In this document: positions 51,112 through 57,200 of the stretch, piece after piece
How positions within the stretch are numbered: the stretch's first letter is position 1
Layout: each line of letters starts with the position of its first letter
DNA from: Halobacteriales archaeon QS_4_69_31
GTDB lineage: Archaea; Halobacteriota; Halobacteria; Halobacteriales; Haloarculaceae
Length of the DNA: 64,000 nucleotides
Direction of reading: 5' to 3'
NCBI GenBank assembly: GCA_003021655.1
Contig: PXRP01000026.1
Location: 62,001-126,000 of the forward strand
Made by a program: the position numbers and the translations under genes
Notes under the pieces: generated by a model
What the model was told of the DNA's origin: nothing
The model's database searches: none
The model's input: only the letters and a program-made list of their open reading frames with translations

Positions 51112-51327
51112 CGTGTTCGGTCGTCGATTGGCGACCGGGCGGTAAGTATCCATCTGTCCGATGCGAGGCCGACCGAAGGGAGGCCTCGAAGGAAGCGAGC
51201 GGGTGGCCGCTCCGGAGAGCACTTGCCGCCGGCGGGCAACGTCCCGGCGACGATCGACGGGAACCCTGAACCGGTCACACCGGGCTGGCAGCGGCCGTTG
51301 CATCTGACCTGCGGCCGGCGGGCGGTC

Positions 51328-51407
51328 ATACTGCCGGCTGTAAGTCTGTAAAGAATTTCGCAACCCCGGAATGGCGAATATCTTCACGAAGTTACAGCCG
51401 GCAGTAT
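51328..51407. repeat. 80-bp palindromic element, copy 1
   Basis: Terminal arms ATACTGCCGGCTGTAA (51328-51343) and its exact reverse complement (51392-51407) enclose a second, partly mismatched stem TTCGC...GCGAA, so the element folds into one long hairpin. A second copy 74-75 of 80 bases identical lies at 54182-54261. The right edge supplies the first base of the minus-strand stop codon of the transducer gene (TGA at 51407-51409). It could be a terminator, a mobile palindrome (REP/MITE-like) or both. Confidence 0.93.
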
Positions 51408-53980
51408 CAGGACTGGGAGTTCCAGTCGAACAGCTCGGCTTCGACCTCGTTGTTGACCTTGCGGACCTGGGCTTCGACGTCGCCGTCGGCGGTCATGTCG
51501 GCCCGGCCGTGCTCGATGAGAGACCGGACCTCGGGGAACGGGCCCATCTGTGCGCCGTTGGTCGCGGGCGTGTCGGAAGACTCCTGGAACTGGTTGAACG
51601 CCGTGGCGTAGTGGGGGTTCTCGGCGAACCAGTCGTCACGTTCGAGCACGTCGACCGCGCCCTCACAGACCGGGAAGTAGCCGGTCTCGCGGTGCCAGCG
51701 GGCCTGCTGTTCGGGTTCGAGCAGCCACGTCAGGAACTCGCCGACCGCCGACTCGACGGCGGGGTCGAGGCCGTCCCCGACCCAGAGGGAGGCCCCGCCG
51801 ACGAGGACGCCGTTCCTGTCGTCCAGGACGGGGAGGTAGCCGGTCGCAAGGTCGAAGTCGGCGCCGGACTCGATGCCGCCCAGCGACGACGTCGACCCGA
51901 TGAGCATCGCCGCGCGCTCGTCGTGGAAGGCCTTTTTCGCCTTCCCGCGGGCCTTGATGCCGGTGTTGTGGTAGAGGTTGTCGGTCTCCATGCCGGTCCA
52001 CCACTCGAACAGGTCGACGCCGAACTCACTGTCGAGGTAGGCCTCGGTGGGCGTCCCGGCCCGGCCGTTCTGCTGGTCGACGAGCTCCTGGCCCGCCTCG
52101 GCGAACCACTGTTCGACGAACCACGAGTAGTTGGCAAAGGTGATCCCGTAGTTACAGACCCCCGCGTCGACGAGACGCCGGCTGGCCTCGCGCACCTCGG
52201 CGAACGTCGCGGGCGGGTCGTCCGGGTCGAGACCGGCGGCCGCGAACGCGTCGCGGTTGAGACAGAGGATCGGGTTCGAGGAGTTGAACGGCACCGACTG
52301 GAGCATCCCGTCGACGGTGTAGTAATCGGAGACGGAGTCGATGAGCGACCTGCGGGTCGCGGTCGGGAGGAGCGTCTCGGCGGGCGTGAACGCGCCGATC
52401 GTCCGGGCTTTCATGCCCCCGATCTCGTTGATCTGGGCGATGGCGGGCATCTCGTCGGTTCCGGCCGCGGCCATGACCTCGTCGAGGACGCCGTCGTAGC
52501 TCCCCATCGACGACAGCCGGAAGTGGACGCCGCCGTACTCGTCTTCGAACTCGTGTGCGAGGTCGTGTAGCAGGAGCGACTTGGCCCCGCCCATCGCGTG
52601 CCAGAAGTCGACGACGGTGTCGCTTTTCGCGACGGTGCGTTGCTGGCGCTCGCCGGTCGTGAACTGCGCGGAGGCCGTCCCGAGGCGGTCGGCCTGCTCG
52701 GAGATCGCCGCCACCTCCCGGGAGACGTCGGTGAGCGACTCGGTCTGGCTCTGGGCGGCGTCGGCCACGGTCTCGGCCTCGACGGTGGTCTCCTCGCTCA
52801 CCGCGCTGACCTCGTCGACCATCGAGACGACCGACTGGGTGGTCTGTGCCTGCTCGTCGACCGCGTCGTCGACCTCCTGGATGTTGACGTTGACCTCCTC
52901 GACCCGGTCGACGACGTCGTCCAGGTGGTCGATGGCCGTCTCGACCGCCTCGGCCGCCTCGGACACCACCGTCTGGGTCTCGTGCATGTCCTCGACGGTG
53001 GTGTCGGTCTGCTCGCGGACCTCGGCGACGGTGGATTTGATCTCGTTCGTCGCTCCCTTTGTCTCGGTCGCCAGGTTCTTGACCTCCTCGGCGACGACCG
53101 CGAACCCGCTGCCCGCCTCGCCCGCCCGCGCCGCCTCGATGTTGGCGTTCAGCGCGAGCATGTTCGTGTCGTCCGCGACCTCGGTGATGAACTCCGTGAT
53201 CTCCTCGATGTCGCCCATCAACTCGCTCAGCCGCTCGACCTGGTCGACCATCTCCGCGGTCTGTTCCTCCATCGATTCGAGGTCGTCGATGGCCTCGCTC
53301 GCCGCCTCCTGGGCGGCGTCCCCGCGGACGACCGACTCGTCGGTCGTCTGGGCCACCTCGGTCGCCGAGGCCGCTACCTCCTGGATCGTCGCGGAGATCG
53401 ACCGCATCTCGTCGCCGACCCTGTCGAGGTGCCCGTTTTGCTCGCTGGCCCCCTCGGCGATCTCGCCGACGGACTCGCTGACCCGCTCGCTCTCGTCCTC
53501 GACGGATTCGATCTCGTCGGTCACCTCGCTCGTCGACTCGTCGACCGCCGTGCTGAACTCGTCGACCTGCTTGAGGGTCGCGTTCCACTCGTCGAGCATC
53601 CGATTGTAACAGGAGACGAACTCGACGACCGCGTCGACGTCGGAGTTGACGTCCGCCCGCCGGGTCAGGTCCCCCGCCGCGTTGGCCTCGACGACCCCCT
53701 GGAGTTCGGCCAGCGACCCCTCCAGGTCGTACAGCCGGTGTTTCTGGTCGGCGACTGTCTCCTCTAACCCTCCGACTCGCTCCCTGGCGCGGTCCCGCTC
53801 GTTTTGCACTTCTCTGAACCTGGCCCGGAGCTCCGACTCCGGCAGGTCCGCCAGGTCCGACTCCGACGCCTCCGCCGGGTCCCCGAGAGACCCCGCGGGT
53901 TCGGCCCCGCTCGTTCCGCCATCCGCGGCCAGATCGCGGCTCGATTTGTGTCTATCGTCTGTCCGATCCCTCATCATCAT
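51407..53980 (-). CDS. soluble methyl-accepting transducer fused to a UgpB-like solute-binding domain
   Basis: An 857-residue protein with no signal peptide and no membrane helix. Order: acidic leader and coiled coil (1-95), HAMP-like segment [29 protein letters not shown] (about 98-130), long helical signalling domain (140-440) with hairpin tip [45 protein letters not shown]. From about 452 comes a complete family-1 solute-binding domain: [59 protein letters not shown] and [10 protein letters not shown], closest to UgpB. The binding domain is normally secreted; here it must be cytoplasmic. Start is one of three tandem ATGs. Probably feeds CheA with an internal metabolite signal. Confidence 0.9.
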
Positions 53981-54181
53981 CCGGTATCGACTCTACAGCT
54001 ACTAATAGGCTAGACCGCAATTATCACTCCTGACATGCCGGGCCGCCCCTGTCAGTCCGGACGTACTGACTGCTGCCCGCCCCGGTGCGCCGGACGCGGC
54101 GTTCGATCCGGGGGATGGACGCGGCCGTCCGTCCCGACGCACTGGCCGCGGCCGTTCGGTCCGGGGGACGGCCTGTTCGTC

Positions 54182-54261
54182 ATACTGCCGGCTGTAAGTC
54201 TGTAAAGAAGTTCGCCACCTCGGGGTGGCGAATATCTTCACGAAGTTACAGCCGACAGTAT
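54182..54261. repeat. 80-bp palindromic element, copy 2
   Basis: Arms ATACTGCCGGCTGTAA (54182-54197) and TTACAGCCGACAGTAT (54246-54261, one change). The inner stem TTCGCCACC-TCGG-GGTGGCGAA is perfect here, unlike copy 1. The right edge again provides the first base of a minus-strand TGA stop (54261-54263), that of the HTH_10 regulator. Between it and the transducer start (53981-54181) I see only a short GTCAGT/ACTGAC inverted repeat and no gene. Confidence 0.93.
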
Positions 54262-57200
54262 CAGTCCCGGCCGCCGGCGTGGGGGTCGAACAGTTCCTCG
54301 AAGACTTTGCGCTGTGCGGCCCGGAGGTGCTGGTGGAAGGTGGGCCGGGAGATGTCCATCGACTCCGCGAGGTCGTCGCCGTCGGCCTCGCGGGGCCACT
54401 CGAAAAAGCCCCCGAGGTGGGCGGTCCGGACGGCGGTCTCCTGGCGGTCGGTGAACCGGTCGAAGACGGACTCGCGGAACGCCTGGCGGGTGTCGACCGG
54501 CCGCTCGTGTTCGTGGTAGCCCACGAGTTCGGTCCCCTCGTAGCGGTCGGCCACGAGGTCGAACACCTCGCGGGCCTCGGCCTCGTAGGGGAGTTCGAGC
54601 GTGTAGCGGACGACGCCCTCCTCGGCGGTGACCGCCTGCGTGACGGCGCCGTGGTCGGCCAGCAATTCGACGGGCGAGTCGGTCACCGTCGCCTCGAACA
54701 GCACCTCGCCGTCGTGGTCGGTGATGACCGTCGCCGCCGTGACCTGGTCGTCGCCGTCGAGGAACGCCCGGACGGTGTCGGCGTCGGTACCCGTCGCCGT
54801 GATGTACAGCCGGAGGCTCCCGTCGGCCTCGTGGACCGAGCCGGTGAGTTCGACGGTCGCGCCGGTCGCCGCCGAGAGGCGCCCGAACAGCAGGTCGTCG
54901 TCACGGACCGTACACTCCAGTTCGACGACGCGGTCGGCCGCGAGGATGCGCCCGCTCTCGATGGCGTTGATGGCGTTGGCGACCGCCCGGCCCAGCGCCC
55001 CGAGGACGACCTGTTCGCGCTCGGCGACCGCGTCGGATTCGCCCGCGTACACCATCAGGACGCCGTAGCTGGCGTCCCTGTAGACCAGCGGGACGGCGAC
55101 GACCGACCCCAGTCCCGCGTCGGCGGCCGCCGCGTGGACCGCCCCCGGCACCTCCCCGGGGTCGGTCACCACGCACAGTTGCTCCTCGTCGAGCGCGCGC
55201 ACGGCGGGGTCGCCGTCCTCGCGGGCCCGGACCCGGTCGACCGCGTGGTCAGCGACCGCGTCGGCGAGGGCGGGGACCTCACCCGCCCAGGCGGTCACGT
55301 CGAGGCGCTCGGCGGCCACGTCCGGGCGGGCGATCCACGCGAACTCGTAGGGGTCGGTGGCGACGAGCTGGTCGACGACCCCGCGTTCGAGTTCCTCGCG
55401 GGTCCCGCTCTGGACCAGCACCTCGACGGTGTTCTCGATGAGGCCGTTGATCCGGTCGACGAGCGTGTCGACGCGCTCGCGCGTCTCGCGGGTCTCCTGT
55501 TCGCGCTTGGCGCGGTTGGCCGCCGCCGCGCCCGTCGTCGCCAGCAACTCGATGGCGCGCCGGTCGACGTCGGAGAAGGCGTCGGGCTCGGTCGCGCCGA
55601 TGCTGATCGTCCCGTGGACGCCCATCGGCAGGTGGATCGCCGACTCGATGACGGCCCGCTCGCGGCCGTCGTCGAGCGCCGCCGTGTCCGCGACGACGAC
55701 GGGCTCGCCGTCGATGAACGCCTCGCCGGGGCCGCCCTCGTCGATCCCGTAGGTCGGGACGGTCCCGACGCGCTCCTCGACCGCGTCGGTCCAGCCGGCC
55801 GGGACGAGCTGTTCGTCCTCGCGGTCGAACAGGCGGACGACGCTCAACTCGAAGCCCAGCACCTCCTCGATGGCGCGGGCGACCAGCCCGGCGACCTCCT
55901 CGCGGTCGCGCGCCTGCATGAACGACCGCGAGGACTCGACCAGCTCCGAGAGCATCTCGCGGTGGGCCTGCTGTTCGGTGACGTCCCGGACGACGCCGAC
56001 GACGCCCCGCACCTCCCCGCCGGGGCCGTCCAGCCGCGTCATGCTGTCCTCGCAGGGGACCGGCCGGCCCCGCCGGCGCTGGACCCGCGACTCGACCGCG
56101 CGCTCGCTGGCCGCCCCCGAGAACAGCGCCTCCAGGGCCGCCGCCGTCTCCTCGTCGTCCCTGACGAACGAGAGGTGTTCGCCCAGCAACGTCTCGGCGT
56201 CGTAGCCGGTCAGCTCCGCCATCGCCGGGTTGACGTACTGGAACCGCCCCCCGGTGTCGACCTCGTAGACGCCGTCCTCGACCGAACTGACGATAGTCTC
56301 TAAGCGTTCGAGTTCCTCCTCGCGGTCGCGGCGCTCCAGTTCGTAGCTCACCCACTCGACGAGCAACTCGATGAACGTCGTCTCGCTGTCGGTGAACGGC
56401 CGGTCGCGCCCCTCGGTGTCGGCGAAACAGAGCGTCCCGTACCGCCGGTCGCCGACGCGTAACGTCCCGCCGAGGTAACACTCCAGCCCGAACTCCTCGT
56501 GGGCGGGGTCGTCGGCCCACCCCTGGTCGCTCGCGCGCTCGACCGCGAGCACGCCGTCGGCCTCGATGGTCCGCCGACAGTAGGTCATCGACAGCGGCAC
56601 CGTCGTCCCCTCGGTGAGCGCCCCGGCCGCGTCGTCGGCCGCGACGACGGTCTGTTTGTCGCCGTCGATCCGCGTCAGGTACGCCGCCGGCAGGTCCAGG
56701 CGCTCCCGGCCCACCGCGAGCGCGCGCCCCAGCTTCTCGTCGAAGCTCAGCGTCCGGTCGGAGGCCAGCCGCTGGAGCGCGCGCAACGCCCGCTCGTTGT
56801 GCTCGCGCTCGTCGCTGGCCCGCCGCTCGGCGGTGACGTCCTGCGCGATGCCGACGACGCCCGCCACCTCGCCGTCGGGTCTGAACGGGTACATCGTCGT
56901 CCGGACGACCTGCCGGTCGTCCCCGCTGCCGACGACGCGCTCGACCGTCCGCGAGGACCCCGTCTCCATGACCACCCGGTCGTCGCTCCGGACCGCCGCT
57001 GCGACCTCCGGGTCGAACACCTCCTCGTCGGTCTTCCCGACGACCCGCTCGCGGTCGACGCCGAACAGCGCCGCCGCCGCGTCGTTGACGTACTCGTAGC
57101 CCCCGTCGCTTCCCTTCAGGAAAACCGGCTCGTCGAGGTGGTCGACGACCGTCCCGAACGAGTACTCGACCGCCCGGCCGTCGCCCGTGACCGACTGCCC

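Follow-up and report, generated by a model that had tools for sequence, protein, structure and literature searches.

Family-1 solute-binding proteins are taken to act outside the membrane. In Halobacterium salinarum, BasT and CosT (Kokoeva, 2002) are reportedly membrane transducers that use separate, lipid-anchored binding proteins, BasB and CosB. Bacterial receptors of the TlpD type carry a C-terminal sensor, the CZB zinc domain. For archaea, the portion of a 2022 chemoreceptor survey available to us reports cytoplasmic receptors with C-terminal sensors (class V) and places SBP_bac among the sensor families (PMC9680633). A sensor placed behind the signalling domain, which the first-pass annotation of the locus studied here had considered unprecedented, is thus already on record. 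That same portion of the survey does not describe a UgpB-type receptor, its ligand or a linkage to glp genes (PMC9680633), and our literature search returned no paper on a haloarchaeal UgpB-type chemoreceptor. UgpB itself belongs to the CUT1 ABC importer UgpABCE (4AQ4 from E. coli, 9LFF/9LFJ from Phaeobacter). In Phaeobacter UgpB complexes with sn-glycerol-1-phosphate (G1P) and sn-glycerol-3-phosphate (G3P), the ligand is contacted by Tyr64, Glu88, Ser143, Ser266, Gly303, Tyr342 and Arg393, and the pocket also has two clamp tryptophans (PMC12718374). The two isomers are bound with similar affinity and without choice between them, and loss of a clamp tryptophan has been proposed to widen the pocket toward diesters in related binding proteins (PMC12718374).

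The window analysed here is a stretch of 64,000 nucleotides from Halobacteriales archaeon QS_4_69_31 (contig PXRP01000026.1, positions 62,001 to 126,000). It contains a minus-strand gene, with its ATG at 53980 and its stop codon at 51407-51409, for a protein of 857 residues. We propose, with a probability of about 0.6, that this protein is a cytoplasmic chemoreceptor through which internal glycerol phosphate, probably G3P made by GlpK, is reported to CheA. The features on which the argument draws are as follows (window positions).

51407..53980, minus strand: the whole gene, an 857-residue cytoplasmic chemoreceptor with a C-terminal UgpB-type domain (ORF, domain searches, intact orthologues)
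53678..53839, minus strand: long helix near the N-terminus, predicted to form a coiled coil, residues 48-101 (AlphaFold2 full-length model, moderate confidence)
53555..53710, minus strand: HAMP-like segment, about residues 91-142 (family alignment)
52799..53320, minus strand: MCPsignal domain, residues 221-394 (Pfam, E 5e-41)
53066..53188, minus strand: signalling hairpin tip, residues 265-305 (sequence motif and alignment)
52619..52654, minus strand: short variable linker from the MCP bundle to the binding domain, about residues 443-454 (alignment)
51410..52618, minus strand: UgpB-type solute-binding domain, residues 455-857 (profile searches, AlphaFold2 model, closest folds)
51524..52498, minus strand: seven glycerol-phosphate contact positions, Y495, E519, S568, S696, G729, Y768 and R819, with clamp positions N617 and W620 (alignment to UgpB)
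51325-51410 and 54179-54264: two 86-nt near-perfect palindromes in the same orientation, bracketing the receptor gene

The 857-residue frame had been placed at 51407-53980 in the first-pass annotation; its coordinates are right, the frame is intact and the strand is minus, the plus strand being interrupted by stops across this interval. Relatives with 73-77% identity have their start codon at a similar place. Against the three nearest relatives, dN/dS is 0.31-0.42 for the MCP half and 0.29-0.31 for the binding half, which indicates that both halves of the receptor are under purifying selection. The signalling half is a canonical methyl-accepting domain, as first claimed, with a strong MCPsignal match and a conserved tip: an 11-residue tip motif begins at residue 275, and the family alignment displays a conserved hairpin tip of 30 residues. 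By homology, the tip is the likely CheA/CheW contact region. CheW domains occur at three loci of the genome itself; at two of these the frame exceeds 600 aa, as expected of CheA. The HAMP-like segment proposed for the protein stands as plausible by alignment only; Pfam HAMP matches 4 of 14 family members and not the window protein. Residues 1-44, ahead of the N-terminal helix, are disordered in the full-length AlphaFold2 model, whose confidence is too moderate (pLDDT 72, pTM 0.51) for claims on inter-domain geometry. In all 53 proteins that could be measured, 181-186 residues separate the tip from the binding domain.

Profile searches, fold and sequence neighbours all place the C-terminal half in the UgpB lineage, which bears out the full UgpB-like domain seen earlier. 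Pfam SBP_bac_8 covers residues 474-793 (E 7e-35), and the NCBIfam UgpB model covers residues 450-824 (E 1.2e-57, below the equivalog cut-off of the model). The best solved relatives by sequence are UgpB of Phaeobacter (9lff) and of E. coli (4aq4, 6x84). Modelled alone with AlphaFold2, the binding domain reaches a high confidence (pLDDT 92.4), and its best Foldseek matches are UgpB structures (6x84/9lff/4aq4, TM 0.86-0.91). A CZB domain was not matched in the window protein, the C-terminal domain being SBP_bac_8 by Pfam.

The first-pass annotation had also put this domain inside the cell, in a protein with neither signal peptide nor membrane helix, and our checks agree. Hydropathy revealed no membrane helix in the window protein (no 19-mer above 1.03 on the Kyte-Doolittle scale), and export-motif checks found no signal peptide or lipobox. 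Only four sense codons separate the upstream stop from the ATG; therefore no upstream signal can be hidden in frame. The Tat-lipobox motif is absent from all 55 fused frames examined, while 22 of 23 stand-alone UgpB proteins from haloarchaea match it and the remaining one is similar by eye. Together, hydropathy, upstream codons and the 55-frame motif test led us to reject a missed signal peptide or membrane helix. No hydrophobic segment follows the tip in the fused frames tested, so the binding domain is predicted to be cytoplasmic throughout. In a few orthologues (L126, L039, L130, L149 and, weakly, L043), the N-terminal region includes a hydrophobic segment about 300 residues ahead of the tip, which may anchor these receptors in the membrane but would leave the binding domain facing the cytoplasm.

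Far from being the isolated oddity it was first taken for, the receptor belongs to a conserved family. Among 394 Halobacteria genomes sampled for binding-domain relatives, the fused receptor is found in about 70, from 15 genera (the genome count was taken by hand from the listing). Carriers include Haloarcula rara, Haloarcula argentinensis, Halohasta salina, Halonotius pteroides, Halobiforma nitratireducens, several Halorubrum, Haloferax larsenii and Haloferax mucosum. Fused frames are mostly about 800-1,000 aa long, with binding domains 46-77% identical to that of the window; stand-alone UgpB frames have about 450-500 aa and about 37-49% identity. Orthologues of similar length and layout, without internal stops, in this many genomes rule out a frameshift or assembly artefact, including the two separate genes considered at first. 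A quick tree of the binding domain unites all 50 fused rows in one clade (SH-aLRT 100), apart from the secreted, Tat/lipobox-bearing UgpB of Halobacteria. The tree thus points to a single origin of the fused receptor. Among the bacterial UgpB loci fetched, no MCP domain is joined to UgpB, and all 15 full-length matches from the phylum sample fall in the window's own order; a bacterial fusion was rejected on these grounds.

We mapped the ligand contacts onto the window protein via E. coli UgpB, whose contact residues are 65, 89, 144, 270, 307, 346 and 397 in UniProt numbering. These positions are self-consistent with the E. coli sequence, and their residue types match those in the Phaeobacter structure. 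The window protein retains all seven contact residues, and none of them varies across the 56 fused proteins, among which only 68 of 378 alignment columns are invariant. The two-tryptophan clamp is incomplete: W620 is kept and the other position is N617. The same Asn occurs in nearly all stand-alone haloarchaeal UgpB, and the change is therefore not specific to the fusion. In some stand-alone proteins the Glu position is occupied by Asp or Ser, and the Arg position by Ser or Gln.

Gene neighbourhoods connect the family with glycerol catabolism. In Haloarcula argentinensis, glpABC and glpK diverge, with the receptor gene between them. Across three genera (g3, g5, g9), 20 genomes have glpK 131-211 bp behind the receptor gene on the same strand, and Halohasta and its relatives show the order glpK-glpX ... 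receptor, followed by ptsI with dhaL-dhaK. GlpK is encoded within 9 kb at 15 of 40 fused loci, where chance would give roughly 1%, versus 2 of 20 stand-alone loci (Fisher test, P-value 0.03). A link to GlpK or GlpA is seen in 7 of 14 genera, with varied arrangements, and is absent in the other half of the genera examined. Counting dha and ptsI as well, glycerol linkage needs 4 changes on the binding-domain tree. Arrangements that differ between lineages argue against one hitch-hiking event. Moreover, glpK is present in 68 of 71 fused genomes versus 272 of 323 others (P-value 0.007, relatedness of the genomes being ignored).

Other proteins recur at these loci. The protein encoded after glpK (L046:11877-12956 and equivalents) is membrane-like and has no Pfam or NCBIfam match; it accompanies glpK in many genera, and 'GlpX' is used here as a label only. 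An AAA ATPase with a Cdc6-type lid adjoins glpK/glpX in several haloarchaeal genera (L046:13022-14194, assigned by Pfam; the L054, L138, L043 and L159 copies by eye) and is possibly a regulator of the glycerol cluster. Upstream of the receptor gene, an amino-acid-permease-like protein is encoded in the sister species and Halobiforma (L035, L115:11717-15771, L040:173-2518). Its L115 version carries a Usp domain. Between the permease-like gene and the receptor gene, L035 and L115 encode a TrkA-type protein.

What we infer for ligand binding, ligand identity, signal transfer and behavioural role would fit together as follows. In an ancestral haloarchaeon, a UgpB-type protein without export signal would have been fused once to the C-terminal end of a methyl-accepting hairpin. 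The two lobes of the cytoplasmic binding domain would close on glycerol phosphate, most likely G3P formed from glycerol by GlpK. Through the short linker, whose distance from the tip hardly varies, closure would reach the helix end of the hairpin in the MCP four-helix bundle and then CheA/CheW, changing CheA activity. The cell would thereby follow glycerol by the rate of its phosphorylation. Pocket conservation and gene context narrow the 'glycerophosphate-, sugar- or polyol-like' ligand first suggested to glycerol phosphate as the candidate. G3P is favoured over G1P because of the glpK linkage only, since UgpB does not discriminate between the isomers. In an archaeon G3P is chiefly an intermediate of catabolism, since archaeal lipids use the opposite isomer, G1P. 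The G3P reading is supported by the domains and tip, the absence of export signals, the single clade, the UgpB fold, the invariant contacts, the glpK/GlpA linkage, the enrichment of glpK, the CheW genes and purifying selection. Several observations count against it: the window copy does not lie in a glp cluster, glpK was not found in the window's MAG (82% complete), one clamp tryptophan is Asn, half of the examined genera have no GlpK/GlpA link, and G1P, which UgpB does not distinguish from G3P (PMC12718374), is in every archaeal cell. Internal pools would also saturate a solute-binding protein of typical affinity. As a tight binder would be saturated inside the cell, the model predicts weak affinity, to which the lost clamp tryptophan may contribute.

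The same topology could serve another ligand. With internal G1P or a glycerophosphodiester in the pocket, the receptor would report lipid synthesis or turnover and not glycerol catabolism. The similar affinity of UgpB for both isomers and the missing clamp tryptophan, whose loss could widen the pocket toward diesters as proposed for related binding proteins (PMC12718374), suit such a ligand, as do a MAG showing no glpK and a glycerophosphodiesterase gene that adjoins one stand-alone haloarchaeal UgpB (L155). However, the recurrent neighbours of the fused genes are glpK, glpABC, glpX, dhaKL and ptsI, not lipid genes, and we consider a lipid-derived ligand unlikely.

A further question is whether the family reading extends to the window gene. 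Its neighbours encode a Bat-type PAS/GAF/HTH_10 regulator and an RFC-type AAA protein, it shares no conserved neighbours with its nearest relatives, and no ABC permease or ATPase genes adjoin it. Together with Haloarcula rara (L035), G303, G388 and G321, it forms a supported clade without glp linkage. It also sits between two copies of a palindrome that are 93% identical, with inner-stem differences that preserve pairing. The palindrome core occurs 4 times in the window's MAG and in 42 of 148 genomes of the family, at up to 80 copies per genome (zero for a reversed-pattern control); from this distribution, the palindrome is a dispersed MITE-like or REP-like element. An Rfam match to a miRNA was sub-threshold and taken as chance. 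The sub-clade might thus have left the glp locus and gained another ligand or role, leaving the family reading inapplicable to the window gene. Yet the seven contact residues are unchanged in the window protein, G303, G388 and G321 keep glpK elsewhere in the genome, and selection has held both halves of the receptor; such a departure appears quite improbable. That the binding domain has lost small-molecule binding and become a structural or protein-docking module is highly improbable: the missing clamp tryptophan would suit it, but seven contacts invariant in 56 proteins from 15 genera would be unexpected for a dead pocket.

Returning to the G3P reading, we give about even odds to its widest form, in which haloarchaea captured the binding protein of an ABC transporter, kept it cytosolic and steer by the product of glycerol kinase, a metabolic-flux chemotaxis. 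If so, the receptor gene just ahead of glpK in many species would fit, and G3P would be a fairly clean readout of glycerol catabolism in an archaeon with G1P lipids. Hypersaline waters are considered to owe much of their carbon supply to glycerol from Dunaliella, so a receptor for glycerol flux would be relevant to the way haloarchaea locate food. The family would offer a case of direct metabolite-driven taxis with a candidate ligand, a known pocket and a linked enzyme, GlpK; one of its glp-linked carriers, Haloarcula argentinensis, is culturable.

Compared with known systems, the receptor shares fold, sequence and the seven contact residues with UgpB. However, it has no export signal, is joined to an MCP domain and has Asn for one clamp tryptophan, and transporter genes are missing next to those fused genes for which the neighbourhood was read; the window protein is not a component of a UgpB transporter. 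Stand-alone haloarchaeal UgpB lipoproteins are the nearest relatives of its binding domain, and most share its pocket, including the Asn, but they differ in their export motif, their tree position and, in one case examined, their transporter neighbours. BasT and CosT resemble it as haloarchaeal transducers with a solute-binding protein as sensor. In contrast to their pairing of a membrane transducer with a separate extracellular binding protein, the window receptor is a single cytoplasmic polypeptide, and it is not a BasT/CosT system. Archaeal class V receptors, as described in the available part of the survey, are likewise soluble, with the sensor behind the signalling hairpin (PMC9680633). 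In TlpD too the sensor follows the hairpin, whereas the sensor of the window protein is not a CZB, PAS or globin domain; it is a two-lobed UgpB-type domain with a glycerol-phosphate pocket.
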